From Grifola frondosa (lineage: Eukaryota; Basidiomycota; Agaricomycetes; Polyporales; Grifolaceae), in the NCBI GenBank assembly GCA_001683735.1, contig LUGG01000033.1:408037-472036 (forward strand): a DNA stretch of 64,000 nt, in the 5' to 3' direction. The notes below the pieces were generated by a model. The model was given only the letters and a program-made list of their open reading frames with translations, was not told where the DNA came from and did no database searches. This document shows, in pieces, positions 20,682 through 46,167 of the stretch (its first letter is position 1; each line of letters begins with the position of its first letter). Made by a program: the position numbers and the translations under genes.

Positions 20682-21180
20682 TGTATGACGGAACGAGATA
20701 AACCTACTACATGGGCACATTGAAAGGATTGCGGTTCTTCCAATGAAGAGATACCATGCCACATTCATCATTCGCGACAGTACGAAACATTTGGTGGGAG
20801 AAGATCAACAAATGTAACACTCAGTTGACATCACGGTCGAACAAGACACATCTTTGACACAACAAAAATGCCCATATCGCGAAAATAACCGAAAAAGAAA
20901 ATTAAGGGAAAGTCCACGGTATCTATAGAGATAAAATATACTGAGATAAGATAAGATAAGAAAACATCCAAAGATAATCTTTGACATTAGTTACGTGTGT
21001 CGAAGTGATCGTTAACATGGATGACACGCGTGAGGTAAACGTCGGTTACGAGAGATAAGAAAGAAGTCGGACGATGGGAGATATGCGAGTAAGCAAGTTG
21101 AAGCATAGGATAAGAAAGAATTGGTTGGAGGTGATAAGCGTCAGTAAATGCGAGGTTTAGGATGACGTCGATAGGGAATA
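20682..21180. other. AT-rich downstream flank of QRI7
   Basis: No gene seen. Contains short GATAAG runs (near 20945-20965). This is where base composition starts to fall toward the AT-rich accessory region. Confidence 0.35.
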
Positions 21181-21885
21181 TATTTGTTACGTGAGTTAGG
21201 GGTGCCCGAGCGAGCGAAGCGAGCGAGGGAGGCTGAGAGAAGGCAAAAGGAAGACCTTTGTACGAGGAGTGTACAAAGGGGCTTTCGTCGTTGGACTCAT
21301 CAGCCTTTTGCCTGAGAATATATACCTGTGGGAGTTAAGGGCAGGCCTTCTGCCGCTTGTTGATGGGACCTAATGACTCGCCACTGAACCGGAAGTGGTG
21401 CCATGGAGGGACGCAGAGCACGATGAAACGTGGTACGATCTCCCGCACGAGACTCCCGCAAAGCGGCGGTGGTCGGAACCCACCAGCGAATTATAATTCG
21501 CTCTGGAATCGTATGATCGTACGATTCCCATAGTATGCAAAACTTCATTCGTTGCTTTTAATACACATGACGTACCGTGTGAACCGGCTCAACGTGCCGG
21601 TCTATTCTTACATGAATGATGTCATGCCGAGCGGGCCGAAGGCCCGCTGACTCAAACATGCTTACTCATCTTAGCGTTTCCGTCAAGACAAGCGCCTATA
21701 GCGTGAGAATTAGCTCGTGTTACTAGCGCCCCACGTGACAATGCTAGACGCCTACCCATGGGTAAGCGCCAGCGGCACGTGCATTGGCGTCTTCACCTGG
21801 CCTAATCACGTGACCCTTCCAGAGAGTCTAGGAATCACGTGAGTATGTCATGTGACTTTATGAAGTCTCGTGCCGACTAAGGCAC
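21181..21885. repeat. Palindrome-rich segment
   Basis: Many perfect inverted repeats in about 700 bp: AGGCAAAAGG (21241-21250) with its complement at 21304-21313, enclosing CCTTTGTAC (21255-21263) with its complement at 21271-21279; an 18-bp palindrome at 21485-21502; arms GGAATCGTA at 21505-21513 and 21520-21528; arms AGCGGGCC at 21630-21637 and 21641-21648 with a GAA loop; TACCCATGGGTA at 21753-21764; arms CGTGCC at 21869-21874 and 21881-21886. No ORF of note. It could be a repeat-element end or a structured transcript; identity unknown. Confidence 0.6.
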
Positions 21886-22320
21886 GCTAAGTTTATACTC
21901 CTGGGACTGATCGATCAGTCCCGGCAGGCGCACAGACGCAGTGGCGCGTCTGTCTCCTTTTCTGGACACTTTCCCACAGACGCACCCTTTGTCAGCGCAG
22001 ACACACCCTCCAAAAGGCAATATTCTGACAGACGCAGTCATTGGTCAGCAGACGCACCATCTTTGTCAGCAGACGCACAGACGCATCACCATATATGGTC
22101 ATAAGGGTTGTGACCTTTTCTCAAAATATGCCTCTCAAAATATGTGACATGAAATCAAGGTGTCAAATTCTAAGTGTCCATTTTGTTTTACTGGCATCGC
22201 CAGTAAAATCATGATCTTCAATAAAGAAACAAAAAGCTTTCAAAATTGAAGTGAATATTGTTTGTGATTTTATTGGCATTGCAATAAAAATGCACAAAAC
22301 AAATAAAAATACTGTGACTG
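21886..22320. repeat. Family A repeat copy 1 (AGACGCAC unit)
   Basis: Starts CTAAGTTTATACTCCTG, followed by a perfect 20-bp palindrome at 21903-21922. Then come many AGACGCAC/CAGACGCA words, CCATATATGG, a GTCATAAGGG-TGTGACC block, and the inverted repeat with arms TTTTACTGGC and GCCAGTAAAA at 22186-22208. Best-preserved copy of the family. Confidence 0.75.
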
Positions 22321-22329
22321 TATTTGAAC

Positions 22330-22720
22330 CTCCTAAGTTTATACTCCTGACAGTTATTGATAATCATCGGCAGGCACACAAACACAGTGGCATGTCTGTC
22401 TTCTTTTTTGGACCCTTTCTCACAGACGCACCCTCCAAAAGGCAATATTCTGACAGACGCAGTCATTGGTCAGCAGACGCACCATCTTTGTCAGCAGACG
22501 CACAGACGCATGGCCATATATGGTCATAAGGGATGTGATCTTTTCTCAAAATATGTCTTTTAAAATATGTGACATGAAATCAAGGTGTCAAATTCTAAGT
22601 GTCCGTTTTGTTTTACTGGCAATGCTGGTAAAATTATGATCTTTAATAAGACAACAAAAGCGGTCAAATCTGAGGTAAGTATCATTTGAGATTTTACTGA
22701 CATTGTAAATAATCAAATGA
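22330..22720. repeat. Family A repeat copy 2
   Basis: Same order of blocks as copy 1. The initial palindrome is degraded; AGACGCA words lie at about 22425-22510; the TTTTACTGGC inverted repeat lies at 22611-22633. Confidence 0.7.
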
Positions 22721-22879
22721 CAGATGTAACACTGTTGTAACCGTAGATAAATCACAAATGTGGAAGATATAGCCAAATGATTAGCAGTGTAAAAAATTTA
22801 AATTCAACCATGGTTGGCACTGTCATGTTACTTTTCTTACATATATAGTATTGAGGTGGCGACATCAATGTTGTAGAAC

Positions 22880-23370
22880 AAGTCGAGCAGGCAAATTGTA
22901 AGTGTATTTCTTGAACTACTTTTGGATCAGAGCAAAAGTAGTGTGACAGAAAATGACTTTGCAGAAAAATCAGATATATTTGCTAGCTACTTTCTAGCCA
23001 GACTGAAAGTAGTTTGAGGGTCCACCTTTTCAGATCATGGTGAGTATGCTCTCACTACTTTTGAACTGGTCTCAAAGTAGCTGACATGAAACTCAGGCTA
23101 TTAATAAGTCTCAGGTGTGTATCATAATCATACTTATGTAAGTGTCTTTCATAAACTACTTTTGAATCAGTGCAAAAGTAGTCTGATAGAAAATGAGTTT
23201 ACAGAAAAATCAGGTATGTTTTTGCTAGCTACTTTTGAGCCAGACTGAAAGTAGTCTGAGGGTCCACCTTTTCAGATCAAGGTGAGCATGCTCCCACTAC
23301 TTTTGAACTGGTCTCAAAGTAGCTGACAAGAAACTCAGGCTATTAAAAAGTCTCAGATGTATATCATGAT
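22880..23370. repeat. Family B hairpin array, copies 1 and 2
   Basis: Two tandem units of about 235 bp (22880-23115, 23135-23370). Each holds three inverted repeats: CTACTTTTG with CAAAAGTAG (22916-22924 and 22933-22941 in the first), CTACTTTC with GAAAGTAG, and CTACTTTTGA with TCTCAAAGTAG. Related copies lie further on. Confidence 0.7.
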
Positions 23371-23479
23371 CATGCTTATGTTGACCATCCATGGTCATAT
23401 CATTTATTGTAGCTTACACTAGTGTTGATCAACAGATACATTCTGCAAGAGGAAATATACACATAGTGCATCAATATTG

Positions 23480-24090
23480 ATCAGCAGGTCTACAGATGCA
23501 TTATCATATATGATTATAAGGGGTGTAATCTTTTCTAAAAATATGTCCGTGAAAATATATGAAATGAAATCAAGCTGTCAAATTTTAAGTGTCCATTTTG
23601 TTTGATCGGCATTGTCAGTAATATTGTTATCATTGATGAATTGAGTTGAAGCTGTCAAATATATTATTGAGTGAAGTCCTAAGTTTATACTCCTGGGAAT
23701 GATAGATCATTTCCAGCAGGCGCACAGATGCAGAGGTGCATCTGTCTCCTTTTCTGGACACTTTTCCACAGACGCATCCTTGGCCAGCACAGACACACCC
23801 TCCAAAAGGCAATATTTCAACAGACGCAGTCATTGGTCAGCAGATGCACCATCTTGATCAGCAGGTGCACAGATGTATCACCATATATGGTCATAAGGGG
23901 TGTGACCTTTTCTCAAAATATGTCTTTCAAAATATGTGACATAAAATCAAGGTGTTGAATTCTGTGTCCATTTTGTTTTACCGGCATTGCCAGTAAAATC
24001 ATGGTCTTTGATAAGGAAACAAAAAGTGGTCAAATTTGAAGTAAGTATCATTTGAGATTTTACTGACATTGTAAATAATCAAATGACAGA
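23480..24090. repeat. Family A repeat copy 3 (with a partial copy in front)
   Basis: A partial copy (23480-23675, ending with a decayed inverted repeat at about 23601-23624) runs into a fuller copy starting AAGTTTATACTCCTGG near 23680. The inverted repeat lies at 23976-23998. Confidence 0.65.
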
Positions 24091-24229
24091 TGTAACACTG
24101 TTGTAAGCATAGATAAATCACAAATGTGAAGACACAGCCAAATGATCAGCAGTGTAAAAAAATTGAATTCAACTATGATTGGCACTGTCATGTTGCTTTT
24201 CTTACATACATAGTATTAAGGTGATGACA

Positions 24230-24460
24230 CCAATGTCATAGAACAAGTGAAGCAGACAGACTGTAAGTGTATTTCTTGAACTACTTTTGGATCAGAGCAA
24301 AAGTAGTGTGACAGAAAATGACTTTGCAGAAAAATCAGATATATTTGCTAGCTACTTTCTAACCTGAGGGTCCACCTTTTCAAACCAAGATGAGCATGCT
24401 CTTACTACATTTGAGCTGTCTCAAAGTAGCTGACATAAAACTCAGACTATTAAGAAGCCT
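24230..24460. repeat. Family B hairpin array, copy 3
   Basis: Same unit as at 22880, shortened in the middle: CTACTTTTG / CAAAAGTAG near 24280-24307, then CTACTTTC without its partner arm. Confidence 0.6.
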
Positions 24461-24760
24461 CAGTTTATACTCCTGAGACTGATCGATCAAGTTCTAACAG
24501 GTGCACAGATGCAAAGATGCATCTGTCTCCTTATGAGGACACTTTTCCATAGATGCACCCTTCAAAAGATAATATTTGAACAGACACAGTCATTAGTCAG
24601 CAGGTGCATCATCTTGGTTAGCAGATGCACCTTCTTAGAATATTTGTTATGAAATCAAGCTTGTTAAAATCACAATCTCCAATAAGAAAACCAAAAGCTG
24701 TCAAAATTGAAGTGAATATCATTTGTGATTTTACTGGCTTTGCAAATAATTGACTGATTA
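24460..24760. repeat. Family A repeat copy 4 (diverged)
   Basis: Starts AGTTTATACTCCTGAG; AGATGCAC-type words replace AGACGCAC. The central part is deleted compared with copy 1. Confidence 0.6.
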
Positions 24761-24829
24761 ATACAACATATTATATAAAAACACACAAAACAAATAAACA
24801 TACTGTACTTTATTTGAACCTCCTCATAA

Positions 24830-25085
24830 GCACCAATATCATAGAACAAGTCAAGCAGGTAGACTATAAGTGTTTTTCTTGAACTACTTTTGGATCAGAG
24901 CAAAAGTAGTGTGACAGAAAATGGCTTTGCAGAAAAATCAGGTATGTGTTTGCTCACTACTTTCTAGCCAGATTGAAAGTAGTCTGAGGGTCCACATTTT
25001 CAGACAAAGGTGCACATGCTCTTACTATTTTGAACCGGTCTCAAAGTAGCTGACATGAAACTCAGGCTATTAAGAAGCCTCAAGT
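24830..25085. repeat. Family B hairpin array, copy 4
   Basis: Same unit: CTACTTTTG / CAAAAGTAG near 24883-24908, CTACTTTC / GAAAGTAG near 24957-24982, and a diverged third pair near 25030. Confidence 0.6.
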
Positions 25086-25089
25086 GTGT

Positions 25090-25520
25090 ATCATGATCAT
25101 ATCATTTATCATAGCTTATACTAGCATTGGTCAGCAGACATATTCTGCAAGAGGAAATATACACATAGGTGCATCAATATGGATCAGCAGACATATATAT
25201 TTATAAGCAGACACACTGTTTGTCAGCACAGATGCACCCTTCAAAAGACAATATTCCTACAGATGCAGTCATTGGTCAGCAGACACACCATCTTGCTCAA
25301 TAGATGCATCCTCTTTGTTAGCAGGCATACAGACACATCACTATATATGGTCATGAGAGGTGTGATTTTTTTTTCCAAATATATCTCTCAAATTGTATGA
25401 GATGTATTAAATTCTAAGTACAACTTTCATTTTACTGGCAATGCCGGTAAAATCATGATCTTTAATAAAGTAACAAACAGCTGCCAAATTTTATTTTAAT
25501 GGCATTGCCAGTAATATTGC
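25090..25520. repeat. Family A repeat copy 5 (fragment)
   Basis: CAGACAC/AGATGCA words at 25135-25340, then the TATATGGTCATGAGAGG block. Two inverted repeats of the TTTTACTGGC type lie at about 25430-25453 and 25492-25516. Confidence 0.55.
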
Positions 25521-26240
25521 TATCATTAGTGAGATAACATGAAGTTATCAAATGTGTCATTGGGTGAAGCTCAACATAGCCATTGGTTAGTAATCATGAT
25601 GATTGCGTTATTAATAATGTTTTTGAAACATTATTGACATTTCTGGTAATGTTGATGGATGGATGCAATGCTTGTATGCATATTGACCATTGACTATCAT
25701 CAGCCATACTAATAACATCATGATCAGTAATCATAATAGGTTGAAGCTCATAATGTAGATTGATGAGCACCATTGAAAGATTTGGCTAAATTATGACCAT
25801 TGTCAATGACATGTCATACATCAAAAGATACTAGTGATGCTGTCCTTAGATATGATCAAGCATCATTGACTTCTAACTAAAATCAATATATTAGTTTGAT
25901 TATTTTCTTCTGAAGAGCATGTTTGATTATAAATATATACATCTGCTGATGAACCTCTTCATACACTGTGTTTTGAAATATGTGTCTGCCAACTGAAGAT
26001 TGTGTCATAATAGTGCTGCATAGTCACATATGACTTGAAACATCGTGGAAGATATTAAGAATTATATTATTGCTACTATGTAATATGTTTATCAGCATTC
26101 AGATTTTCACCTGTTTGAATGACATCTTTTATTAGCAACATCATCATCATATTATATTGAGCATGGATAAGATAAAATGAGTCACATCATCATTTTATAT
26201 TTGTCCGTATTTTCTATCATGTGACCTCATCATGTGACAC
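25521..26240. other. AT-rich stretch without recognised genes
   Basis: Very AT-rich, with no open frame of note and no family A or B unit. It leads into the promoter of the recombinase-helicase gene. Confidence 0.4.
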
Positions 26241-26385
26241 TTGTTGATGCTATATAGTTGCAAATAGAGTTCAAACTCAGCAACCATATCATAAAGAGTT
26301 CCCACGTGCTTCTTGCTTTTAACTTTCATCTTTCTTTCCATCATCGTGCTTCTTTAAACATTAATAATCTGTCCAGCTCTAGATT
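26241..26385 (+). promoter_or_regulatory. Promoter and 5' UTR of the recombinase-helicase gene
   Basis: CTATATAG near 26250 is TATA-like. It is followed by TTCCCACGTGCTTCTT (near 26300), which contains an E-box CACGTG and resembles TTCCCACGCTTCTT in the two other promoters of this cassette (32.66 and 34.76 kb). ATG at 26386. Confidence 0.5.
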
Positions 26386-29300
26386 ATGGCTACATTTACT
26401 AAACTGATTACTTGCAGTATCTGTGGCAAGTTGTTCGATCAGGAATCACGCATTGCCCGTGACACCCATCGCCGGGATCACTGTAATATGCCGGTAAAGC
26501 TGGTTCTCAGCGATGAGACCCTTATGGTCACTCGCAGTGATGACAATTGTTATCACTGTCAGTGTACTAATCCGAAATGTGTCAAAAAATATACAACAAC
26601 TCGTGCATTCAAAAATCATGTGAAGACAGTTACACAATGGATGGAGGTAAGCATTTTACTGGTGCTGCCAATAAAACTGAGGCTGATGTCATCACAAAAG
26701 GTTGAACCCCAGGAGACTTCAATAGTCACATTAAAGTCAAATCAGGTAAGCATAGTATCAGTATTGCCAGTAAAACTGCAGCTAATATCTTCACAGGTGA
26801 TTCATCTCAAGAAAACTTTATCAGAGACAAGTCAGGTTGGCATTTTTTTGATTTATATTATTGATCACATTGATACTGAACTGGCCACAGATTATAGATC
26901 AAGATGACAGTGAAAATCTCATAGCAGATGATAATCATGTAGGCATTATGCTAATGTTGTCAATGAAAGAATTAATATATCGACCATTATTATAGTTGGA
27001 GAATACTTTCCAAGGATCTCATTCACTCAACAATCAAGTGAGTTTATTGGGAGTATTGTTAGTAATATTACCACTGACTTTGTTATAGGTTGGCAACCAA
27101 AATGTCACTGAGACATCAATCACAGAAAATCACAGAGCAGTAAATATATTACTAAAACTACCAGTAAAATGTCACTCAACTCATAATCACAGAATGAATA
27201 TTCTGAGGCAGTTGCAGAGATCTCTTCATCGGAAGAAAATCAGGTACATGTTTTACTGGCATTGCCATTAAAATAGTGACCAACATCATTATAGATTCAA
27301 GGTCCAGTTGCTGCATATACTGCAACTCAGGTGGGACATTGTCAGCCATGTCAAGAATAAAAATGCTTATATTATCATAGCTTCCTGGAACTCGTGATGA
27401 GGCAGCCAGCATGATCACAGCTGCTGACTATTCTGAACATCTCCACCTTTCAGAATGGGGACTCGTCTTCAATGACACCTATCACTTTTTAGTGTGTAAA
27501 TGGTGTCAGGTAGCCATTTCTGCTGGAATTAACAGTGTCAGGTTACACATGACCCGCTCACACCAGGAGGCCAACATTCATATCTCTGCCTCCAAACTAA
27601 ATGATGTCATTAATGACTGTAAGGTTTTGGAGAAACTTCCCCAAGTTTCAGAGCAGGATTATCTTCAGCCCATAGGTGGTCTTGCCATATATAATGGTCT
27701 TTGCTGTCACCATTGCAAGATGATATGTGGATCAACAGGGTTCATGAAAAAGCATCATCTGCAACTCCATCATCATCTTGATATGCCTACTAGCTGGCCT
27801 GCATGCAAGATGCAACATTTGAACAATGGTCCTGATACTCGAGCTTGGTTTGAAGTACACCCCTCTGGCCATCCAGCTACTTTATCTTATGAGGAGGCCA
27901 TCATCAAGAAATTATACTTGGACCTGGAGCATTCTAAAGTAGATCATCAATCTCAAAATACTCGTGAAATCTGTCCATGGCTATTGACAACCAAGTGGCA
28001 TGTTCATACCGAGCCATACATGACAAAGGAACTTCGAGAGCTGGTCGCATTTCCCAAGAAGGACGAGTTTCCAGGACTATCCAATGCAGTACTACACTAT
28101 TTGAATGCAGGCCTTGCATTGCTTGAAGGTACCGATAGCCTGACATTGCAAAAGCTAAATACAGAGGATCCCTTAAAGACGTGAGCACCTCGAAATTACT
28201 GGCAGTGCCATTAATCCTGATGCTGAACCCTTGCAGAGGCATTAATAATACGCCCTTTCACCGTCTGCAGCAGGATGACTCCATCAAGAGCTATGGCAAT
28301 CTCGTGACCTGTCTTTTGGCCATGCTATTAAGGCCCAAGCAGCAATATCAAATTCCACTTCCTGCCATCCTAGTGACACACATACAGAAACTTCAGCAGG
28401 CCATCGATGATAGATCTGATATCGAGGATCACATACATCATGTCCTCATCGATCTCTGGATGACACGTTGGAATCCATCACAAGACAACTCCATTCCCTG
28501 CCCCAGTCATCGCTTCCTTGCTCTCAACAGTGTTCAACACGATGGTGGACATGCTGATGCCAGTCATAACACGCAGCCCATTGCTAAGCTCAAGTTTGCG
28601 ATACGTGTCACCTTTCTTTGCCAGATCAAGAAGATGTCTGCGACCAAATATGGTGGCCAGGATGATCTTGCATGTGACGAGCTGCAGGCATGGTTTACAG
28701 AGAAAACATACTCTCCCTTTAACACCATATGCTCTCTTCAGCATCGTGCCAGTGCCATCACATTGATGACGATGAGCCCACCTCGTATCTATTGGAAGGA
28801 CCAGGAGACATATACCACGATGCTGTACAAAGGATCGACCATCAACCTGGATGACATTCGTGCAGTGTTTGCCAAAATGGAGCATGACCTGGTTGATCTT
28901 TGGGAGAACAAGCTGATGCTTGGTCTCGGATTGCATGTGGAATGCGAGGAGATATGTGAGGACCTCACCAATTGTAATATTGGTTATTGCTTTCTGGAGG
29001 ACGAGCGTAACCAGGCACTGAAGCAACGGACACAGTTGCTTAGAGCAATTGTTGCCAACCCAGAGCTAAAGCGTCGCTTCATGAGAATCCATGGAAACAC
29101 AATAACATGGAATGTCATGGAGCTTCGAGCCTGGCTTCAAGCCTATAGCAGGTTCAATGCACTCCAACTGGCCAGATGCGAGATGCTCAGTGGTGGACCT
29201 GGACGTGGCACCGAACTCACCTCCATGATATTTCGCAGCACGGGTACACGTCGTCAGCGTAACTTATCCATCATGGGCAAACACGTGACAATGCTTCGGA

Positions 29301-32255
29301 CATATCACAAGACTGGTGGCCAGACTGGTCTGGACAAGCTATTGCCTCACTCTTTGGATGGCTTCACTGGGGCGATGATGATTCAGGATCTAGTGTTGGC
29401 ACGTCCATTTGCAGAGTTGGCAGCTCGCGAATGTTTTCTCGATAATGAGATTATTCGTCAGTCATACAGGTTTAACCTTTTCGTCAACTTTGATCGACAA
29501 TTCACCTCGGATGATCTCTCATCGATCATGAAGCGATACACCATGGAGAAGATGGGAGCAGATCTTGGTATCAATTCCTGGAGACACATCAGTGTTGCAT
29601 GGAGACGTAAATTATGCAGTGCAGAGATGGAGCTATTTGATGATCATGAGGAGGACACTGTCGAGGCTTTACAAGTTGGACATTCCAAGGCAACAGAGGA
29701 TCGAGTTTATGGCATTACAACAGCCACACTACAGGGTGTCAGCGAGGATGTCATTCCGATGTTCTTGGAGGCAAGCACCAAATGGCAAATTGAGTGTCAC
29801 GTGGTTCCAGGTAATGTCAAACTACTATCAGAAGATGCTTTGATTCTCATATATGTATGCAGGTGGATTGTTGCTGCCATATAAGCAAGCACAGAGTAGT
29901 AACTTCATACAGCTCGTTCGTGACAACAAGATCAAACTACGACGTCAGCCCACATCTGTTCTTCCTTCCACTGCTCCCACTGTCGATCTGGAAAAACTCT
30001 CAGAGATGATCATGACAAAGTTGCAACACAAACTTGATAGTATGGAGGATAGCATTGTGGCAAAACTCCTTATAGCACTCAAGCCTTCTCTTCCATCTGC
30101 TGACATCACAAATCAACCTGCACCATCCATGGCCAATATTCAACAGACACTGATCACTCCCACTTCAAGCATCACTGGTCAGCATCATGCCAGAATCATC
30201 AATCATGTTTCTGCTCCTGGACATTCTTTATCAACCACGAATTTGCCAGCTCCAATTTCTCCCACTCCTCATGATATTGATATCATTGGCAATGCCAGTG
30301 ATAATACATCATCTCAGCCATCATCAGACATCGACGACCTCCTTCCCTTTCCTCTTGCTCAGCCACAGAACTCCTTTTCAATCTCCTCGAATCAGGACAT
30401 AGAGCATCAGGCACTTCAGGTTCTTCGTCAAATCTTGAACAAACCAGAAGCCAAATGGACTTCCGATGCTCAACGAGTGGCTATGCTCGAGGTGCTGACC
30501 AGAAAACGTGATGTGCTAGCCATAATGGCTACCGGTTCAGGAAAGACAATGCTCATGACGGTCCCATCCATCATGGAATCAGATCAGGTCACTGTCGGAA
30601 TATTGCCTCTCAAGTCCCTGCTTATGGACTATCAACGCAAGCTTGAGGCTGCCGGAATATCTCACGAGGTGTGGATGGGCAAAAACCAAACACGTCTGTC
30701 TGGTTTGAGCAACTTGATATTGGTGTTGGTCGATCAAGCACGGAAAGGTTCATGGAAGCAGGCCATAGCCGAGTTGAACGAGCGCAAGAAGGTGGTTCGC
30801 ATTGTTTTTGACGAATCTCATTTTGCCATCACCTCCAACGATTACCGTCAATCCTTGCGAGATGTCTATGATCTTCGTCAATTTCCTTGTCAATTCGTCT
30901 TGCTATCAGGCACGGTGGCACCACTATCGATCCCCTTCCTCTGTGATACCTTTGGCCTTATGGATAATGCTGCCATCATTCGCACTCGAACTAGTCGACC
31001 TGAAATCAAGTACATCATTGAAAAGCCCTATGAATCCTTCCAAGCGATTACACGACGACTTCAGGCCATTTTAAAACAGGCCATGACAGAGTTTGACCAA
31101 CAGGACAGGATACTGATCTTTGTGCCCTTCATCGAGGAGGGAGAACAAATGTCAAAAATTCTTGGCTATGATTTCTACTGTGGTGGTAGAAATATCACAG
31201 ACACACGTCGTATGCAAATCTATGATGCTTGGATCAAAGGAGATAAAAAGGTCATGATCTGCACCTCTGCGTTTGGTGCAGGCAATGACTACCCTCATGT
31301 GCGACTGGTCATTCATGCTGGCTCTCCTCAGGAACTGGTAGAATTTACACAGGAGAAAGGTCGTGCAGGTCGAGATGGTGACATAGCCCGATCTTGGATA
31401 TTGCCCTCCCCCATACCACGAAGTGGCAGGCCAAGCATACCGGAAGGCGAAGTCGATCACAAGGGACGTCAAGCAATGTATGATCTCATATATAAACCTG
31501 GAGATCAAACTTGTATCCGTCACATCATCACCAAATTTTGTGATGGCGAAGGTACTTCCTGTGCTCAAGACTCGAATGCTATCCGTTGTCAGCGATGTGC
31601 AGCACGACCTGATGCCTCCGTCACTTCTTCCAACCAATCCTCCTTACCTTTAGTACTTGCACAACCCACTCCAGCATCCAAACGAAAGGCGAATGATGGC
31701 ACAGCAGATGGCAATAATTCTTTCATCGATGCTCAGCAAAGGGCAAAACATAGACATATCGAGGCTCACAGCAAGGAGGCAACCTATATCGATCACTTTC
31801 TCATTGCTTTGCAGCACTTTGATGGACACTGCGCCTTCTGCCAGTCCTTTGGAACGACATCACCATTCCACGAGATCTACAAATGCCCCACGATGCGCTT
31901 GCGCACCTTTTCCAGTAACATTCATTATATCACATGGCGTAAGCTTCTTGTTTACGGACGCCACCATGATAACATTTGCTGGAAATGTCACATTCCACAA
32001 ATCGAGGATCGCCTACATCCACAATTCGAAGCTGGTCAATTGTCCACTTGCAAGTACAAAGACATCATGGCCCCATTAGCATTAGGCATCTATCTTTCTG
32101 ATACTCTACGCTCCATGGCGGAGTCCAAGTTTGATAGGAGCTGGAAAAGCGAGATGATATTCGCAACGTGGTTGATGGAAAAGCCTGTCAGCGGTCACCC
32201 CAGCAACCTGGCTGCACTTTTTCTATGGTACTATACATTTATAACTTCACAGTGA
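26386..32255 (+). CDS. OrsD zinc finger - tyrosine recombinase - RecQ-like helicase fusion, probable mobile-element protein
   Basis: Eleven exons splice to an uninterrupted 1,779-codon frame: 26386-26646, 26701-26745, 26797-26835, 26891-26938, 26996-27037, 27089-27139, 27193-27243, 27295-27330, 27381-28180, 28237-29810, 29863-32255. Residues 1-87 hold a Cys/His-rich finger-like segment; 88-191 is a polar linker made of seven micro-exons. About 225-330 is an OrsD-type pair (LVCKWCQ...HMTRSH; LCCHHCK...HHLQLHH). A tyrosine-recombinase pattern follows: R781 (GRGTEL), K816, N904-x-x-R907-H908 (NSWRH), H940 (GHS), Tyr949 (RVYG). Then a RecQ-like helicase: GSGKT with K1210, DESH 1299-1302, QEKGRAGRDG from Q1479, a CQRC zinc cluster and a Cys/His-rich tail. 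N904 replaces the usual first His of the HxxRH box. Inference: a strand-exchange enzyme with its own helicase. Related families: OrsD proteins, YR elements, telomere-linked helicases. No named element with this fusion is known to me. Confidence 0.8.
26647..27380 (+). other. Array of eight phase-0 introns and seven micro-exons
   Basis: Introns 26647-26700, 26746-26796, 26836-26890, 26939-26995, 27038-27088, 27140-27192, 27244-27294 and 27331-27380 are 50-57 nt. Every one lies between codons, and the seven exons between them are 36-51 nt. Several carry the TTTTACTGGC/GCCAGTAAAA-type inverted repeat or half of it (26652-26676, 26757-26779, 27250-27272). Confidence 0.75.
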
Positions 32256-32604
32256 ATCATGCAGAGCCCCATGTACGTGATCATATTGTAATTGAACGAA
32301 TAATTTGATCTCACCAATTATCGATGACGCCGTCGATCAAAATGATATGATCATGTTTAGCATGATGACTCCAAGCTCAAAATAAAGGATTCCATCGACA
32401 AGTCAAGGTTCAAAAATGATCATTACATTTCCCAAGTGTTTGATAAATGATAGCTCTCTGTAAACTTGGTACAACAATTTTGTCAGCAGCAATGTCATTT
32501 ATGTTACTTGCATGAATATCGATATCTTTGAAGCATGCTGTCGGATATTATATTTTATGTTGATTTTCTTAAGGTTTGAACCTTGTTCACATAACACTTA
32601 CAGC
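32256..32604. other. Spacer after the helicase gene
   Basis: AT-rich 3' flank; no gene or repeat unit recognised. Confidence 0.4.
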
Positions 32605-32886
32605 TGTACAAATAACTACAAATAAAACTTTATATAAGGTGTTACTCGATTAAAACAGTTCCCACGCTTCTTAACCTCTGACCGTCACCTGCTCAATATA
32701 ATCATTTTTGATTATTTAGCAAAGTGAGCTTGGCCGAGTTTTAACGGCGTTGCCACTAAAACACTGACTTTTAAACTCGACATTCAGCAATTCAGACTGG
32801 TTAGTAACAGTTATCATAAGTACAAATGACGACATATTGACTCGAACTCAAACACATTAGCTCTCCATCTTCCAACCGTTCACACC
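32605..32886 (+). promoter_or_regulatory. Duplicated promoter / 5' UTR block, copy 1
   Basis: TATATAAG at 32631-32638, then CCCACGCTTCTTAACCTC from 32661. A probable 5' UTR intron (32724-32787) contains an inverted repeat of the shared hairpin family at 32739-32763. The block is a clear duplicate of 34715-34893, with the same order and spacing. Confidence 0.65.
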
Positions 32887-33681
32887 ATGTCCAAGCTGTC
32901 TGCCGAGATAATTCTCATGATCGAAACATACACCGCATCTGCTCTCTGGGGTTCATCTCTCATCGACAATCCTTGGTTCATGATAGAACCGTTCAAATGG
33001 GAAGGCGCCCTGCTAGAGTTTTTGATCCTCGATCTTCGCGACGTGGTCCAGGCAGAGACAATTTTATCCCATCTGGAGGATTCGAGAGCTCGACTCACTG
33101 GTGTGAAGCAACTGGAGCTTCACGTACAAGACAACGACCTTTTGCCTCGCATTTTGGCACTCTTCTCTCACTTCACCTCACTTCATACACTCAAACTCCA
33201 ATGCCACACCTATTCCCCTCTTTCTCGTACCTTGAAACCCTTTCTTGCTATTCTACCCTCTCTCTCCATCCAATACTTCATTTTGAACTATCCCGATGGC
33301 ACCTTCCCCTCTAGATTTACATATATTTTCATGTCTTTGACACCATCCATTCAGCAGGTCACGGTTCATTTAGCACAGGAAAAATTTGGGGTGAGCACTC
33401 ATTTTTCTGTCGGCATGCTTGACTTTTGACTTGTGTCTCAGTTCTGGTTTAAACATTGTATACCCATCATTCAGAAGGCATTACCCAACCTGAAACGTGC
33501 CTACTATCTTGCAAACACCACCGAGGAGTTGGTCCTTGATGCAGAAGAGATATATGGTTTTGACATTGCCAAGACACAAGCAATGTCATTAGATGTTTTG
33601 GTATACTCCAGATGGATCATTACTGACAAGGTGCACTTTGCTATAAGAAAGGATGATGCGGACTTGCCTGATTATATCTAG
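32887..33681 (+). CDS. Uncharacterised protein, F-box/LRR-like character
   Basis: Not assigned to a family. ATG 32887 starts MSKLSAEIILMIETYTASAL, reminiscent of the short N-terminal helix of fungal F-box proteins, but no full F-box can be claimed. Leu-rich stretches follow (LTGVKQLELHVQDNDLLPRI, FTSLHTLKLQCHTYS, FLAILPSL), as in fungal F-box/LRR-type proteins. One intron (about 33391-33442, GTGAGC...CTCAG) joins LAQEKFG to FWFKHCIPIIQKALPNLKRA; the stop is at 33681, giving about 247 residues. It lies between the helicase gene and the ParB-like gene and shares a promoter block with the latter, which suggests it belongs to the same cassette. Confidence 0.65.
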
Positions 33682-34714
33682 ATCGTTACAATTTGTATCA
33701 TCGCTCGTTCGTTTACTTTAGAAAATGAATGCAGAGAATTATCAGTCTCACTTTAAATCTTTCTAAATCAAAGATGATAATATTTACATTCATATTCTCT
33801 CATATTTCATATTCCTTTTTTCAAACCTGGGAGAATAATAACATGAATTCATTCGTCAGATTTCATGTTACATCTTTGTGGACTGGAGTGACAGAGCACT
33901 TCATTTATGCATGACATATGTTATAATTTATTCACCATCGAGGGACTCTAAATAATGATCAATGCTGAATGTTTCAGAAAGAAATTTTATCATATAATCA
34001 CTCATACATGTTTGGATGTTTTGTTTTTGTGCTACCTAAGCATTTATAAAATAATAATAAGCAACTGCACAACAGTTGACATGTTGATGTAAGCAGCTTG
34101 TGATTTTATGCCATAATTGTGACCCAATTTTAGTGGTCTGAGACGCCGGTGGAAGAAATGAAGATGATGTAGAATAGTGTTGCTGCAGCTAAGTCAGGCC
34201 TAAATAGTATATGACTCATGACTTCTGCAGTTTTTCAATATTACAGTGATCTTACATTCATTTCGTAGCCTATGTATAGCCGCATAATCATGCCAAATAT
34301 CAAAATGTTAGACCTTGTATTGATGGAGATATGGCCGAAAAGCCGATTGCAAAGTCCGACTTTTTAGTCAGTTTTTTAGCAATGTAATTGAAATTAAAAC
34401 ATATTCAAGATAATTATGCAAATGATGGTGTTACATTCAAATACATATACATCTTAGCTATTAATTTCAATTCAGATTATATCTTTATCTGCAAAACTCA
34501 TGTCAGAATATCTAAAAAGCTGAAACAGGTGTGACTAAGCTGTGGCAACACTAATGTAGAATAAGATAAAATGAAAACTAAAAATAAATATTTAAATTAC
34601 AATGATAAATGTCAAAATATATGTAAAGCATTCTATCAGATATTAGTGTATATTTTTAAAAAATTAGAGTTTGAACCTTAGTAGTATAACGTATATAGCT
34701 ATATAGTTGTATAT
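33682..34714. other. AT-rich intergenic stretch
   Basis: About 1 kb, strongly AT-rich. One 61-codon ORF inside looks like chance. No repeat of families A or B seen. Confidence 0.4.
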
Positions 34715-34893
34715 ACAGACACAAACAAAACTTTATATAAGATGTTACATCGATCAAAATTATTCCCACGCTTCTTAACCTCTTACCATCAACTGCTCAA
34801 TACAAATTGCAACTTTGTAAGTTTTGATTCAGTTTTAACGGCACTGCCACTAAAACACCACCAAGTCTTGAACTCAACATTCAGCAATCAAAC
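34715..34893 (+). promoter_or_regulatory. Duplicated promoter / 5' UTR block, copy 2
   Basis: TATATAAG at 34734-34741, CCCACGCTTCTTAACCTC from about 34765, and a 5' UTR intron (34817-34884) with the inverted repeat at 34836-34858. The first coding ATG is at 34894. Paralogue of 32605-32886. Confidence 0.65.
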
Positions 34894-34970
34894 ATGGTGA
34901 GTGATAATGAGAATAATAATAAATAATAATATATTGACTTTAACTCAAAACATATTAGTCATCCACCAGC

Positions 34971-35012
<42 letters not shown>

Positions 35013-38000
35013 AACAACAATAACACTCAAACAAATAACAATATCATGAATACAAACATGGTACATTACGCTTTCTCATAATAATAATAAATATTATTAT
35101 TTTAATATTTATTAATAACTTGTAGCATTCTCACACTCCCATTACTAATGATCAAAATAACAATCTCGTAAGTCCTACTTTAGTTTCGATCCTTGATAGT
35201 TCTAATTCTCATCAATAATATTTCAGACTTCTTCCACTGTACGTGCTTTGTTTTAACGGCATTGCCATTAATCCGTGCTGACTTCCATCCTCAGTCATTC
35301 AATATGGCAAGTCTTTGACTTTGAACAATGTCTCTGATATGATTTAAATGTTCACGTTCAATAGCCTTCCTTTTGTTCTGACGCTGAACCTGCTACCACA
35401 TCCGGGCTGATAAATGTAAATGACAATATGGTACGTGATTGACATTATCAATTGTAGCACTTGGCCATTCCTTTAATTGATATCAATTTAGTTACCTGCC
35501 ACTCCGACTTCTTCTGTTAGGTCTGTTGATATGAACAAAACTCTTACTAAAACCAATGTATGTATTATTACATGTGGTCAGATGTTATTATTAATTCTTT
35601 CACAGACTACAATTATATCCGGTCTTTCCCATGATACCATACCTCAGGTAAGTTTGAATGATGGTTTATTGACAATGCTCATAATATTACGGATATTGAA
35701 CATAATTTATTAGGTTATTGAGACTGAGCAAGTCGGAAAAGTGCCAACTAGAGGCAAGAAAACCAAAGTGTGTGATTTTTATTTAATGCTTTATTATATC
35801 ATCTTTACCATGATTTGCAGACATACAAATCTGTTTCTATCATTCCGGATAATTCTGATGAGGTGCATCACGGCGTTATCTGCAGTGTCAATAATATTGA
35901 TATGATGTTCTCCACGTCAGGAGGCCGCTATGACTTTAGCTGACACTTTTGCTGTGACTGCGGAAACATCAACCAATGTATGACTTGCTCCTATGATATC
36001 GACTGATTGACTTGAATTTATGACTTTAGAAACCAAGCAAAACAACGACCACCAAGCAAAGACCGGTGGTGACGGTCCAGATGGTAAGAATTTGTATGCT
36101 TTAAAAACAATTGTATAATAATGAATATTGAATCAGGTGACGAGAACGAAAACATTGAAGGCACCAGCACGGACAGTGCAACCTACTTCAGAGACGGTGG
36201 ATCTTGCTGTGGGTGTTTCTTGTTCAGACTTATCGATATAAATAACTCACAATAATTCATATTCAGCTACAGGCACCTAGATTTCAAGGAACCAAGGGCT
36301 CCAAGGCAACTGGCACCAAAAAGCCTAGACCAGTCGATAAAAAATGCTTGTATGTACAACTCACACTTCTGTTTTACTGGCGTTGCCAATAAAACTAATT
36401 TCAAACATAGGATAAGATCGATGCGATCAAATTGGATTTTACGAAAACCCAACAGTTCCAAGACATGCTCACTGCCACAAATAATGCTATTGTTGGTGAT
36501 GCCCTAGTCGACATATTCTGGCCGGATGAAGTCACCGGTCTGCCAAGGCTGGATGGTGGATCATTTGCCAAGACTACTGGACCGGTCTTGTTGCCAAACC
36601 CCTTCAATGAACGCTTCCTGAGCAAGGCACATGTGCGAGATCTAGCCCAGAATTTTGCGTCCATGCCCAAAGAGCACGAGTCTGAGAATGCCATCGACAT
36701 CATGATCGATCCACGTCTCATTGACCTCACATCGTTGAAATCTAAGGACGACTCTGCAGCAGACCTCCTTCATATTGTCTGGAATATCCATGCTCACAAT
36801 TCTACCGCCACACTCCTGAATGGAAATCATAGGATCCATGCAAAGTGTTTACAGTTGGGATGCATGCATACGATGCTAATGTCATGTGCCAAACGCATTG
36901 AGGTGACAAGAGATGAAAATACTGTGATGGTGGCCAAGGCATACTTCGCAAATCTCCAGGAAATCTTCATACAACAAGCATGCTTTCGAGTGCGCTTTTA
37001 TGCTGAATGTGAGTGCATTACTGAGGGCATTCAATTGGCAGTGCCATTAATAAAGCTATCATTAGCCATCATACTTGAGTCAATATACAAACCACAGATC
37101 CTATTCGAGCTTGCCGCCAACCAGACTCATCGTTACAAGAATGATTCTGATGAGAATCGGATGGTTTTAATATGCAGAATCATCCGAACCATGCCACTCG
37201 ATGAACGTTCAGCAGCCATGCCCAACCTTACCGTTGATGGGAGTAGTGCACTTCGGCGCATGTTTCAGCATGAGAGCTGCATGAGTTCATGTTGGCTGCC
37301 CTAGAATATCCCACCTTTGAGGCCAGTCCACTCGTAACTGCCAAGGAATTTGATGTACTGTGGAAGAACTTGCTTGGAGTAGGTTCAAAACATCTGATTA
37401 TATTTTATGATGCTCGTATCTGATTGACTACTTGCAGGCCATCATGCCTCTATACATCACTGTTCTGAAGAACATGGACTTCCTCTGCACACCCCTACAA
37501 GCACCTGACTGGGTTAAGTTTCATGCAGAGCTTCACGCCATTGAAAATCTACATGAGCGAAGGAAATATGAAGACAACTTCCTTACCACCATGGAAGCTT
37601 CCTTCAGTGACACATCAGAGATTCAACCTCAGCGTCTGGCCTTTCCTGTCACTGTCATGAAAAGCATCGAGAATGCCTATGTCGAACATTTTGGGCATCT
37701 CTTGGATTACTTTGGTAGTGCCAAGGACACTGAGGAAGAAATCATCTGGAATAATGCTGCCAAACTCTATTGGATGAAGATTGAGTTCATATTCACAGAG
37801 ATGAAGCAGGATTATCATGAAAATGTCAATGTCCACTCTCCCATACTGGATACCTTAGTCGCAGTCTCCCCAACAAGTTGAAGTGGTTACAATGGCGTAC
37901 ATTTGGGCGCAGCAACCTCAATGTTGCGACATCTTTACCACTGTTCTGTGCCCAACTGGTTGTAGATATCAACAAGTTGTTCATTCCGGTGGAAAAGGCA

Positions 38001-38409
38001 ATGGTGGAGGTATGTGTCTCCTGAATATTTTAATGACAATGCCAATAAAACTGGTTCACAGATCTCAGAATGGATAGCACCATATGTGACATTACCAATC
38101 ATCAACGAGGACAGGCAGCCTGGCACTCGACATGGAGTGGTCTGCAAGTATATTTACGTCATCTATGTATCAGCATGTGCCGATTGAGAAGGCAAAACAA
38201 CTTGGCCGCAAGTTATTTTTGAAGGTTTGCTGCTTCGTTATCTTTGGGAGCATCAAAAGTGACTTAGTTTATAACAGCTGATCAGCATCATTCTTGCCAC
38301 TCGTCGAACAGAAGTCAAGGCCTTGCAGGCTCTAATCAATGCAGAAGAGAAAAACTTTGACGACACCATTGGACCCATCTCCATCATCTCATTCGCAATT
38401 CTGCCCTAA
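34894..38409 (+). pseudogene. Micro-exon gene with ParB-like NGNHR motif; 3' half frame-disrupted
   Basis: The start codon is a 3-nt exon (34894-34896). It is followed by 13 exons of 12-102 nt (34959-35060, 35126-35167, 35227-35238, 35295-35306, 35365-35430, 35492-35557, 35606-35647, 35714-35767, 35821-35862, 35921-35977, 36030-36083, 36137-36208, 36267-36353), all phase 0. They encode a 237-residue Asn-, Ser/Thr- and Lys-rich tail with a poly-Asn run. The main exon (36411-37008) has FWPDEVTGLPRLDGGSF, DIMIDPRLIDLTSL and LLNGNHRIHAKCL, which resembles the NGxHR motif of ParB/sulfiredoxin-like folds (inference). After the intron at 37009-37065 the reading changes frame near 37277, near 37850 and between about 38110 and 38170. 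Later pieces (FMLAALEYPTFEASPLVTAK, LPNKLKWLQWRTFGRSNLNV) still look coding. Recent decay or assembly indels; function unknown. Confidence 0.55.
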
Positions 38410-38759
38410 CCAATAAGCTTGCAGATGTTCTTCTCGAATATCAGAAACAGACACGTCAAATGCCACTTAAAACAGGACGCGTACTTCCCATAACCCTTGG
38501 TCACCCTAGAAACTTTTGTAACCTTCTGATATATATATTATATATAATATGATGTTTGCCAATCATCCTGAAAATTGGTAGGTGTATAGCACACCTATGG
38601 AGAATGCCATTCCCAAGATATCTAAGTGTTTGGCGATCTCAAAGTCTCTTGATGTGCTTTACAAGATGATGAAAGTGAGATCACAATAAAAATTCAAGGC
38701 CACCCCATACATTCATGCAAATGCATCCAATATCTTTATATAGTGCTCTTAATGTGTCA
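38410..38759. other. Spacer after the ParB-like gene
   Basis: No gene recognised. TATATATATTATATATAATA near 38531 is simple AT repeat. Confidence 0.35.
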
Positions 38760-39440
38760 TACAAAGTTTGGTGTAATTCCGATAAGAATTCGAATTTATA
38801 TTGTGAAAATAATGTTTGGTCATGAGGAGAACATGGGGCATAAATTGGGATACATGCTCAACCATCTCAATTTTTCTTCACATGATGTCTATATATGCAG
38901 AGAGGATAGGCATTCAGTTTGAAATGATTCTGACAAGGTTCAGAATTTATATTGAGGAAATGATGTTTTGTCATGGGGAGAACATGGGGTATAAATTACA
39001 ATATGTTTCCAATGACTTTGATTGTGTTTCCTAGCTATGTACATGGACATGAAGAAGATATGTATCCAGTTTTGAGTCATTTGAATGGGTTTTCAAATTT
39101 ATGTGGAGAAAATAGTGTTTGACCAGGGGGGAGAAGATTGCTTACAAATTAGAATACCTATCCAACTGACTGCATTATACATTTTAACTGTTCTTATGTC
39201 CTCTAAAGATATGGATGTGCAGTTTGAAAGTATTTTGACCAAGTTTCAGAATTTATACTGAGGAGAAGATGAATGATGTTTGGTCATGAAGACAACCTGA
39301 GTCATAAATTAGAATGTGTGTTCAACTGACTCTATTATCCCTTGCAATTATGTTAACATACCTGAATCAGATGGACATGCAGTTGCTAGCAATTTGAACA
39401 AGGTTCAAAATTTATATTGACGAAATAGTATTCCTGTATC
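38760..39440. repeat. Degenerate ~155-bp tandem repeat
   Basis: Five diverged units anchored on GAATTTATATTGAGG-like words at about 38792, 38943, 39095, 39249 and 39408 (spacing 151-159 bp). Most are followed by ATG-TTTGGTCATG, GGAGAACATGGGG-TATAAATT and a TATATGTA-like region. Related fragments (ATATAAAAGAAAT with GGAGCACT) lie near 39563 and 41118. Confidence 0.6.
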
Positions 39441-39825
39441 TGGAGCGCTAATGGTATCAACCAGTGGAGCGACCTTGTAGCATTAAATTTCATGTTGCAT
39501 TCTGTCTGTGTATTATGCCATATTATTTATGTGATGTTCAAGCATACAGATCAAGTTCTGAATCAATATAAAAGAAATAGTAATGAGGCACCGGGAGCAC
39601 TGACTTTAATAATCGATATCACATCATGAAAGACTTTATTGTTTGATTGCATTGAACATACTAGCAGATACCCATGTCATGCCATGGTAGGGGGATTTCA
39701 AATTGTGTGAAGTTATCCATTGATACATATAATCAATATCAAAATATAATATGTCGGATTCAAACAATATTAGAAAATGGACTAATTATGACAGTCGGTA
39801 TCAATTAGACTTTGAGACCGGTCAG

Positions 39826-40700
39826 CTAGTTCACTGATTGTGAAGGTGGTGGAGCTTTCAGCTTCATTTCCTCACTTTCAATGTCCCCACTGATGCTGGG
39901 AGCTTCGAAGCTAATTCTTGCTCGCTTCTTGCCTTTGTCCTGCAGGGGACTCCCAGTATGACTTCTATCTGCAATATCATCAAACCATCATGTTCAACCC
40001 GATGCATCCGGGAGGAAGAGTGGCAGGATCTGCATGCAAATAAGAAGTGAACAGGTGAAATAAGCTTACTTGCCACCAAAGACATGAACACCTGACGTTG
40101 AGCTTCCAAAAAGTATGATGTCCTCTATTATTGATGTGAATGACTGCAGTGTCATTTAACCGCCATGAGCATGCCCTCAGCATATCTGATTGATGCCTCT
40201 GTGCATGGAAATGGCTTGAATTTTTTCAAAGCACTTGGAATCCAGAATACGAACTTCAACATGTAGATTTTCATTCCCTGCAAAGTGTTCCGGAGTGACG
40301 ACACATACTGATAGGCCACGACATCGACAGTCGAAGCAGTGATATTTATGCTCGAACAGCATCCCAATATGCTCAGAAGGGGTTAGTGGTGTGAGTCAAG
40401 TCCATCAGATTGAAGAAGCTGTTATGATTTGTTAAGTTAGAGCCTTCATGTTGGGTCACCCAGCTGATATTGCCAACGATATCATAACCATTATGCGACA
40501 TTGTCTGTGAATATAGATCGGCCTCTGCAGTGACCTTTGCTCCCTGTAATTTGGATGAGTTGAATACCGCAAGACAATCAACGTGTCCTACTTACCATAG
40601 CATATAAGACATAAGTTCCTTGGTTGGCAAAGTTGACCAAATCTTTTGTTATAAAACTTTCTTGCAAAAGATTACTACAAAAGCAACACAGGCGTTTCTA
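39826..40700 (-). CDS. Unrecognised spliced gene
   Basis: No family assigned. Minus-strand exons read ITKDLVNFANQGTYVLYAM (about 40610-40670), then GAKVTAEADLYSQTMSHNGY and NISWVTQHEGSNLTNHNSFF to LTHTTNPF (about 40380-40545). Next come VAYQYVSSLRNTLQGMKIYM, FVFWIPSALKKFKPFPC and SIRYAEGMLMAV (about 40155-40340), SIIEDIILFGSSTSGVHVFG (about 40070-40140) and a basic tail ending APPPSQSVN with a stop at 39826. Exon borders carry plausible GT/AG sites, but the joins around 40150 and 40370 are uncertain, and upstream exons may exist to about 40950. It is antiparallel to the ParB-like gene. Confidence 0.4.
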
Positions 40701-40949
40701 GCTCGCATAAAATGTGAGTGTCCAGATAGCTCCATCAATGCTCGAGATTGGATATGGGCTCACACCAAGTACACACGATCTGTCAGGATTGTGGGCTCAT
40801 TAACGACTGCGGTGGCGAATATCAATATCAATACCGTTAGCTCATTAATGATGGATTGTGTGCACTTGAAGTCATCGCATGAAATGAAGCCAGTGCTCAA
40901 GTTATGTGCACTCGCCGACCAAACTGAGGCCAAGTGATTATTTAGGCAA

Positions 40950-42906
40950 CTACCAAATGAGAAAGGTATCCGAAATGAGACGTTCCCAAAATGAGAACGG
41001 TATCCAAAATAAGAAATATCTGAAATGAGCAGTGTTTCAGACACCAAGCTTGACTATTACAGAAGATTTGCTCAATAGAGCGGATATATATTGTTTTCCA
41101 TTCAGGCAAGTTTCTAATTGATATAAAAGAAATTATGATGAGACATCAGGAGCACTAGTCGTACGACCTTTTTTTTAATTATCAGAATGGGAGAGACCCT
41201 GTTCTATTTTGGTATTCCATTCAATATATATCTTCATAAAAGTAAAGTAAGGTGCATGGTTTTTACTAACCCAGACAGGTTTGTTAATTAATATGGAGAT
41301 AATAATATGCTATGAGAAGAGTGTAGAGAAGGGCTTGAGCATGCAGGCCGATGTTCTGACATACGTTGGAGCATCATAACATCAGCAAGGGATTATTATA
41401 ACTCTGATGACACTCAATGAGACTATACATTCAATTCAGAAGTAGGCAGTCTGATTCAGGTTATATCTTGATTCCCAACCGTGGGCCTCATGATGCATGA
41501 ACTGAAAGGCTGAAGTATTGCTTAAATCCCAGGCCCATGCCTAATGATTGTCTCGTTGCAATTTTTGTCTTTCACTACTTAAATGGCCTCCACATTCCAT
41601 AGAGTATAATTCATACAATGTCATTTTTCCCTATGACAGTTTCAGCCAAGCTTGGCAACACTACTTACAGCCAGCACATGGGTAGCAGTATCATATAAGT
41701 GAAGTTTATCAATGACTGTGATTTTCAATTTTTGAAGGATAATTGTTGGTGTTGTGATTACAGGGCAGTGTTTGTTTGCCATCCACAAGAGGTTTTTTGA
41801 AAAAATGGAAGAGTTTAAGTGACAGAATCAAAAATGGAGGACATAACATTACATTTATAGAGCAGGCAGAACAGTATCTACTACACCATCATGGTGAACA
41901 GTTCTTCATTTTCTTTCTTTTATTAGTCACCTTCATTGAACACTTAACTTCCCTCTTCACTTTTTCTCTCAAATCCCAACTTTTTTTGATAGCCTGTCTG
42001 CGTAGGTCCCACCCCTTGTGCCTATCTTCGTTTGGTTTTATGGGCAATGATTTTGTATCTGCCACATTTTTCGATAGCTTTCATCAATACAAATTGTATT
42101 TAATATGAGATGATTGCTATAAACAAGTTATGATCTCACCTCTGCCCACTGCAGTGCATAGGGCGATGCTGGTGGTGACCGCTCATTAGTATCAAACATC
42201 CTAAAGCACAGTTGCTTAGTCTAAGATACACTGCTTGAAGGGTTAGTACTACATACCGTTAAAGAAGAAACCAACAAAACAAATGGTATGATATATGCAG
42301 TGGCTACTTTTTTTTATTGTAAAATGAGAGGCAACCAAAACCCGGGAATTGAGCCACAATATGTAGAAAATGTACAAAGTGCACAGACCATGTGAAGTGT
42401 CTATATATGTTTATTTGGTCATGCTCTTCTGATTTCGTCCATGTCTGATCTAAGCTTACAAATCATCGCTGCCTCCCAACTGCTGTATATATATTTGTTG
42501 AAACATTTTTCAATGGGGTACACTACACCACTACTGTCATGCATGACATCGACAGCTTATGGTGGCGAGTAAGTGTTAGATATGAACGGTAACAATCCTG
42601 ATGGTTGGAGATATGGTAGTAAGTCAATTTACCGTTATGTGGCGTGAATTTGGGAGTAAAAATAAGCATCAGCAGATGTGATACACACTTTGAATAACAT
42701 GCAGGACAAGGTTTCGACCAATGACACGTAAGACCAAAATTCATAAACAGCACAGAAGTGGACATATTCATGATATCACGAATGACTTTGGTAATTACAA
42801 CACCAATCGTTCATTGGACTAGTATAAACCTGTAATTTTTGAATACATACTCCAGCAAAGGTGTGATTTATTTTGGGGAGTATAGAAAGTCACCGAGAGG
42901 TGTATG
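40950..42906. other. AT-rich stretch without supported genes
   Basis: Short ORFs only. A fragment of the ~155-bp repeat family lies near 41118. No RNA gene recognised. Confidence 0.35.
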
Positions 42907-45900: not shown

Positions 45901-46167
45901 GTGTGCGAAGCGCGCGAGGAGTCGGTAACCATAGTCCGCAAATACAGTCCAGCAGCTACGGTGGGTGAGCAGGTGGTATGGCTCGAATGTATGCATTAGG
46001 TTGGGACCTCCAAGCTCCAGACTGTTTGAATAAGGCAAGAAGTCCTCAGCAGTAGGACCATCATCATAATCATCAAAATTCGACGAGTGGCGTGGCCAGA
46101 TGGGATGGTCAGGAAATGGAAGATCCACAGGAGATGTTGGTCTCGGAAACCTGCACATACTAAGCAT
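42907..46167 (-). pseudogene. Large unknown protein in four overlapping frames (mobile-element-like)
   Basis: Four long minus-strand open stretches, 46167-45292, 45295-44444, 44666-43881 and 43905-42907, follow each other with overlapping ends and shared style. They probably derive from one gene of about 1,050 codons. Recognisable pieces are GEPDMIAVTDIVTLGIGDMQ, YFRPKT-type basic segments, GELLVDLAFSFNP then KPVVGLWRLDALDASFGAAG, and a C-terminal basic then acidic tail (KKKRALNKKRSN, then DDEEEEWQEDRN). No known domain is assigned. Each of the three junctions moves the codon phase by the same amount and none offers a good intron, so 1-bp losses, assembly indels or programmed frameshifting are the options. 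Position and strand suggest it continues the Ulp1-like gene upstream. Confidence 0.5.

Follow-up and report, generated by a model that had tools for sequence, protein, structure and literature searches.

The subject of this analysis is a gene at positions 26386–32255 (plus strand, best intron chain) of a 64-kb stretch of Grifola frondosa DNA, hereafter the window, which forms the end of contig C28 (472,036 bases) in a genome assembly of 39.06 Mb and 64 contigs. The gene is real, and its single polypeptide combines three modules: zinc fingers/OrsD, a tyrosine recombinase (YR) and a RecQ-like helicase (OrsD-YR-RecQ fusion gene). On our best reading it sits in an element of ~16.6 kb (21887–38514) with an exact terminus, and the joints made by this terminus follow a rule, the adjoining base of the target being C. 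We put at about 0.6 the probability that the fusion gene encodes the key protein of a YR-helicase mobile element which joins chromosome-end DNA by one end.

Structure of the fusion gene

Three long exons (27411–28180, 28237–29810 and 29863–32255), separated by the last two introns of the gene (28181–28236 and 29811–29862, plus strand), splice to a product of 1,578 aa with no internal stop. The source annotation of this locus, P0001 (1,375 aa, 'ATP-dependent DNA helicase tlh2'), has the same exons joined and a later start inside the OrsD exon. The initial annotation, made from the letters of the window, had described one intact gene of 11 exons and 1,780 codons in frame. Its first part agrees with the long exons being open across all three modules and with the presence of YR and RecQ together in many relatives. 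As for the second, an intron-chain search recovers the 11-exon, 1,780-codon model with intron lengths of 50–57 nt, but this is one among many open chains: there are at least 3,000, and among those listed, 37 have eight upstream introns and 1,780 codons. With so many open chains, the eight small introns upstream of the long exons (26647–26700, 26746–26796, 26836–26890, 26939–26995, 27038–27088, 27140–27192, 27244–27294 and 27331–27380, plus strand) stay predicted. Exon 1 (26386–26646, plus strand), which encodes a zinc-finger-like N-terminus and is weakly matched by Pfam, matches homologues at their N-terminal ends (best E 2.6e-10), so a start at 26386 is plausible.

Domains and catalytic residues

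All modules lie on the plus strand. The OrsD domain (PF12013, Pfam E 7.6e-10) is encoded by 27465–27770, the YR region by 28238–29809 (core modelled 28775–29791, Tyr codon 29708–29710), and the RecQ-like helicase core by 30468–31379, where Pfam matches DEAD (E 1.9e-12) and Helicase_C (E 1.8e-13). Among solved structures the helicase is nearest to RecQ-type enzymes, namely the Bloom syndrome protein (2.2e-20) and 1oyw (1.7e-19), which we take to be E. coli RecQ; the similarity of the DEAD and Helicase_C cores thus points to a RecQ helicase. For the RecQ zinc-binding region a Cys pattern is seen in the family consensus, but there is no Pfam match.

The catalytic residues named in the initial annotation for both enzymes were all found at their positions. 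Residues are numbered here after the 1,780-codon model (minus 201 for the 1,578-aa, three-exon model), and conservation was counted in 77 aligned rows, gaps excluded, with two rows (Q and P0001) both representing this gene. The YR residues R781 (72/74), K816 (77/77), R907 (74/75), H940 (73/75) and Y949 (74/75) are kept almost throughout, the exceptions being C and H in place of R781, R in place of H940 (twice), W in place of R907 and M in place of Y949, while in the helicase the Walker K1210 is kept in 62 of 65 rows and the DE pair in 59 and 60 of 61. Six columns (R, E, K, R, H and Y) are invariant in 12 chosen sequences with identity down to ~20%. The sequence follows the R, K, R, H/W, Y order of the tyrosine recombinase superfamily, with H and Y ~9 residues apart. 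The residue three before the second R is mainly N, S or Q in the first group of relatives; in the second, several members have H there. A recombinase fold, whose absence would have refuted the initial annotation, is present in the predicted YR structures, whose best Foldseek matches are to YR/topoisomerase-IB structures; the H/Y stretch itself is poorly modelled.

A family of fusion proteins

A protein search with the YR region, in which (as in the later profile search) only candidates sharing most words were scored, matched at least 76 database proteins including P0001. The named source organisms are presumably all Agaricomycetes, and several matches derive from metagenomes. Of the 76 matches listed, 19 have all three modules, covering 90% or more of the OrsD, YR and RecQ columns. 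YR and RecQ occur in one protein in 36 of the 77 aligned rows, two of which are this gene. A second fusion gene of the same order is located in the genome itself (C2, 31.9–37.2 kb, 20–32% identity), and a search with it yielded five relatives. Three distant proteins were added by the profile search, P0116, P0119 and P0120 (YR match E 1e-20 to 1e-31), of which the first two carry OrsD and a helicase by Pfam and the third a helicase alone. YR and RecQ distances run parallel across the family (r 0.80, n=35). The fusion is therefore old, and its family is widespread, with distant relatives in metagenomes. The search for other genomes with the same fusion was thus successful, and the suggestion that the combination is peculiar to this locus has to be abandoned.

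Three further distant matches of the profile search (P0124, P0126, P0127) combine, in a single chain, DEAD/Helicase_C with what we take from the Pfam accessions to be a UvrD-type helicase.

The element, its terminus and its copies

The element begins with CTAAGTTTATACTCC (21887–21901, plus strand), an exact end shared by copies: the same first base forms the junction in the left and right arms of C2 and in C7, C44, C50 and C62, and the flanks that it meets are many and unrelated. In a genome pattern search, the first 17 bases of the terminus were found, with at most one mismatch, at 26 places in seven clusters. The left end is a repeat array (21887–25600); its units begin at 21887, 22333, 23679 and 24459, each with the terminal motif itself or a sequence closely matching it. 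On the target side lies block A (20983–21886), a subtelomere-like sequence with related copies in the genome, three of which lie no more than 2.5 kb from a contig end (C1, C10 and the start of C62) and others farther in. Some element copies are themselves near contig ends and point to them. Orientation could be assessed for C28, C7, both C2 arms and C62 (C44 and C50 were not assessable); in the first four the element points to the nearer contig end, and in C62 to an end whose sequence is common to the start of C1.

The limits 21887–38514 follow from the left terminus, the span of the second palindromic site described below, and the sharp left boundary of block B at 38515. We treat this boundary as the element's distal limit here, though it may be a truncation point. 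The copy in the left arm of C2 is 99.4% identical to window 21887–28648 and is then cut inside the YR; beside it, the counterpart of window position 47560 is fused directly to that of 21887. Apart from the fusion gene, the element contains two plus-strand ORFs (36411–37301 and 37411–37878) with no Pfam match, and a predicted short intron upstream of the former contains a palindromic site.

The joint with the target

Eleven of the 26 motif places were compared with an uninterrupted relative, which reads C at the joint in every case (11/11). After C50 was merged into the right arm of C2 and C44:34248 was dropped, nine independent sites remained, all nine with C in the uninterrupted target (chance ~4e-6 at 0.25 per site) and seven with CA. 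For the C28 junction, C1 and C62 read CATTAG; for C7, C5 and C4 read CATGTG and C12 reads CATTTA; for the right arm of C2 together with C50, C36 and C27 read CACGTG; and for C44:33924, C16, C26 and C1 read CGTTAG. The window itself supplies the uninterrupted sequence for C2:145593 (CAAATA), C2:152350 (CACATT), C2:145344 (CAAAAT) and C44:34234 (CATTTT). The C62 junction was retrieved as a test of the C rule, which held (CTGTGG in L043–L045). The flanks in C36, C27, C16, C26 and C1 are just 74–79% similar to the filled ones, and at C2:145344 the terminus is that of a diverged element, which has another palindrome. In the four junctions examined for it, the target does not resume, either up to the contig end (C28 and C7) or within 59 kb (two in C2).

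At the C7 target point (L057, C12:1278909-1279009), C12 continues with CATTTATAGG and C5 and C4 with CATGTGATG, perhaps because of another insertion at the same joint. Sequences related to the flank in the right arm of C2 form tandem arrays with a period of ~305–307 bp at C27:504595-509941 and C36:344087-346985 (G000).

Palindromes

A perfect 20-bp palindrome (21903–21922) is located 16 nt inside the terminus. Among copies it covaries, with nine distinct versions in which pairing is kept despite letter changes; three versions are perfect and show differences at 4–7 of 10 arm positions. Since pairing is kept while the letters change, the terminal palindrome would fit a hairpin. A second palindromic site, TTTTANYGGCRNTGCCRNTAAAA (23 bp), was searched for in the 39-Mb genome: 35 strand matches fall on 21 places, each of them within or downstream of terminus clusters or element starts; the reversed sequence, used as a control, gave no genome match. 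In the window it occurs, with up to three mismatches, at 15 places between 22186 and 38050 and nowhere else. Eight of these sites (two in weaker versions) fall in short GT-AG introns, some of which are consensus-predicted only. The site varies without full compensation, as would be expected of a protein-binding site.

A probable mobile element, proposed to join by one end

The preferred reading may be put as a working scheme. The zinc fingers would bind the dispersed palindromic sites and hold the element, the OrsD module being a candidate for binding TTTTACTGGCATTGCCAGTAAAA. Opening of the terminus, at which the palindrome is able to fold, would be the task of the RecQ motor, and cutting the terminus and joining it to C in chromosome-end DNA that of the YR. 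By such one-ended joining the DNA distal of the target would be lost and replaced by the element together with the DNA it carries toward the chromosome end. Both the mobility of the element and the activity of the YR, including its part in making the terminus-C joint, are what we infer.

Several points weigh against this reading. The profile searches proposed in the initial annotation matched DEAD and Helicase_C and placed the helicase closest to RecQ, but the Pfam scan gave no match in the recombinase exon, and no recombinase was among the matches of the YR region in a profile search of PDB. The Foldseek E values of the YR matches are no better than 0.11 and 0.065, and the predicted local distance difference test score (pLDDT) is below 50 in both models across the stretch bearing H and Y, so that support for these two residues comes from the sequence. 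Fifteen motif places inside arrays were left out of the junction comparison. The region 28649–38514 has no second copy and was included on the strength of the palindromic sites, and, as no distal end was found, the data would also fit an ordinary insertion whose right end lies far away. An assembly-wide search for (TTAGGG)3 found none, so the label 'chromosome end' has been given on the grounds of contig ends and of related blocks. Sites centred on 3 bp are atypical as YR core sites, and another enzyme could make the joint.

The least improbable of the alternatives, though still an unlikely one, is that a telomere-linked helicase gene family was spread by nothing but ordinary recombination of subtelomeres (through break-induced replication or end joining), with the YR a relic or serving another role. 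Copies lie in blocks shuffled among contigs, block B is likewise sharp-ended at 12 other places, and the source annotation names the protein tlh2. However, random end joining would not yield the same element base and a target C at nine of nine sites, and the YR catalytic residues are conserved across very distant relatives. A Helitron-like rolling-circle element, with the terminus as its 3' end (hairpin near the end, other strand) and the fusion gene as cargo, is improbable. A hairpin does stand near one retained end, and the incomplete copies seen retain that end, but no Rep or Helitron domain was detected in the ORFs scanned (18 pieces, 10 covering element ORFs of at least 150 aa), and whereas Helitrons have a CTRR 3' end and insert between A and T, here the end is CTTA(G) and the target C. 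Hardly more credible is the domestication of a YR element into a host gene for telomere maintenance or end protection: the family is old and conserved, with a RecQ motor and a contig-end setting, yet the 99% copy in this genome is truncated inside the YR, and Agaricus bisporus homokaryons without subtelomeric RecQs, proteins that may or may not carry the YR, show, in the accessible part of the report, no apparent telomeric abnormality (PMC7473861). That two adjacent genes were joined by a false intron at 29811–29862, in an 11-exon model first drawn by eye from sequence alone, is very improbable, as the residues beside this intron are kept in relatives (G783 in 73/76, Y788 in 75/76, 1,578-aa numbering), P0001 joins the same exons, and the relative P0031 has an additional stretch precisely at the intron position, resembling intron read-through.

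The one-ended YR-helicase element thus being preferred, the initial suggestion of a new mobile-element class gains from the fixed terminus, the C joints and the dispersed palindromic sites, and is held back by the distal end and by the indirect case for movement and catalysis. The strongest form of the idea is an altogether new class of mobile element, moving in the form of a chromosome end and swapping the distal arm. Its RecQ motor would unwind the terminus so that the palindrome folds, its YR would read that fold rather than letters, as integron integrases do with attC, and join it to a single C, and fungal telomere-linked helicases in general would be such recombinases and not telomere-maintenance genes; this form is speculative and rather unlikely. 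The proposed link between YR elements and telomere-linked helicases stands, a conserved YR being present in a protein filed as tlh2. From the 1990s onward, subtelomeric RecQ helicases have been reported in several fungi, with no consensus on their function; a conserved recombinase hidden in the RecQ polypeptide offers a testable one, as enzymes of mobile chromosome ends. The junction rule predicts C at every new joint in long-read mushroom assemblies.

Neighbouring features

Just proximal to block A, ORF 19541–20698 matches TsaD (PF00814, E 5.7e-28). Inside the element, ORF 32830–33426 has no Pfam match, and the DNA at 32878–33498 has a 74% relative on C12 adjoining block A. A ~380-bp repeat (34175–34554) recurs at no fewer than 43 further genome places (best 40 of 260 candidates scored) with 83–96% identity, which suggests a repeat resembling a miniature inverted-repeat transposable element, or a solo terminal repeat. 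Block B (38515–49000) is multi-copy, with its sharp left boundary at 12 other genome places, and its overlapping minus-strand ORFs (42910–48014) have no Pfam match.

Comparison with known systems

Subtelomeric RecQ genes are described in Ustilago (PMC10532341), Agaricus (PMC7473861), Mycosphaerella (PMC4522978) and Sporisorium (PMC4466345), with OrsD sequences near the RecQ repeats in Ustilago (PMC10532341); in A. bisporus they occur in 5/5 burnettii and 0/4 bisporus homokaryons (PMC7473861). The accessible portion of one paper reports, for subtelomeric RecQs, a helicase core and no further domain. The fusion gene resembles telomere-linked RecQ helicases (Ustilago UTASa, Magnaporthe TLH, Agaricus burnettii) in its RecQ-like core and its apparently subtelomeric copies, many of them truncated, and is set apart from them, as far as the available descriptions go, by the YR. 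No published link between a YR and telomere-linked helicases was found among the matches listed, in literature without preprints and with few subscription papers, nor is one described in the excerpts available of PMC3627910, PMC10799480 and PMC3418195.

The element shares with Cryptons a eukaryotic host, a YR gene and the lack of terminal inverted repeats. In the parts accessible of a Crypton survey, the YR is either unaccompanied or combined with GCR1_C, DDE or C48 peptidase; short direct repeats are noted and a helicase is unmentioned (PMC3212892). Here, by contrast, RecQ and OrsD are fused to the YR and no flanking repeat is known, and GCR1_C, characteristic of CryptonF, is matched by Pfam neither in this gene nor in five relatives. 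A second end of the element, which a comparison of terminal direct repeats would need, was not found. Starships are likewise fungal mobile elements with a YR, but their captain carries DUF3435, and Pfam gives the YR no match here or in the same five relatives. With Helitrons, in which the strand-transfer enzyme Rep is fused to a helicase, the element shares such a fusion and a hairpin just inside one end; it differs in having a YR, no Rep in ORFs of at least 150 aa, no CTRR end and no A^T target. The transposase of Academ is of the DDE type, without a YR. Academ/AcademH transposons encode a RecQ-like or related helicase, according to the sections available (PMC3627910, PMC10799480); unlike in these, a YR rather than a DDE transposase accompanies the RecQ-like helicase here. 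Integron integrases and attC are bacterial, with other sites and no fused helicase, the likeness lying in the way of working only. To our knowledge, this is the first YR found with a helicase in the same chain, the Helitron Rep-helicase and Academ being parallels built with other enzymes.

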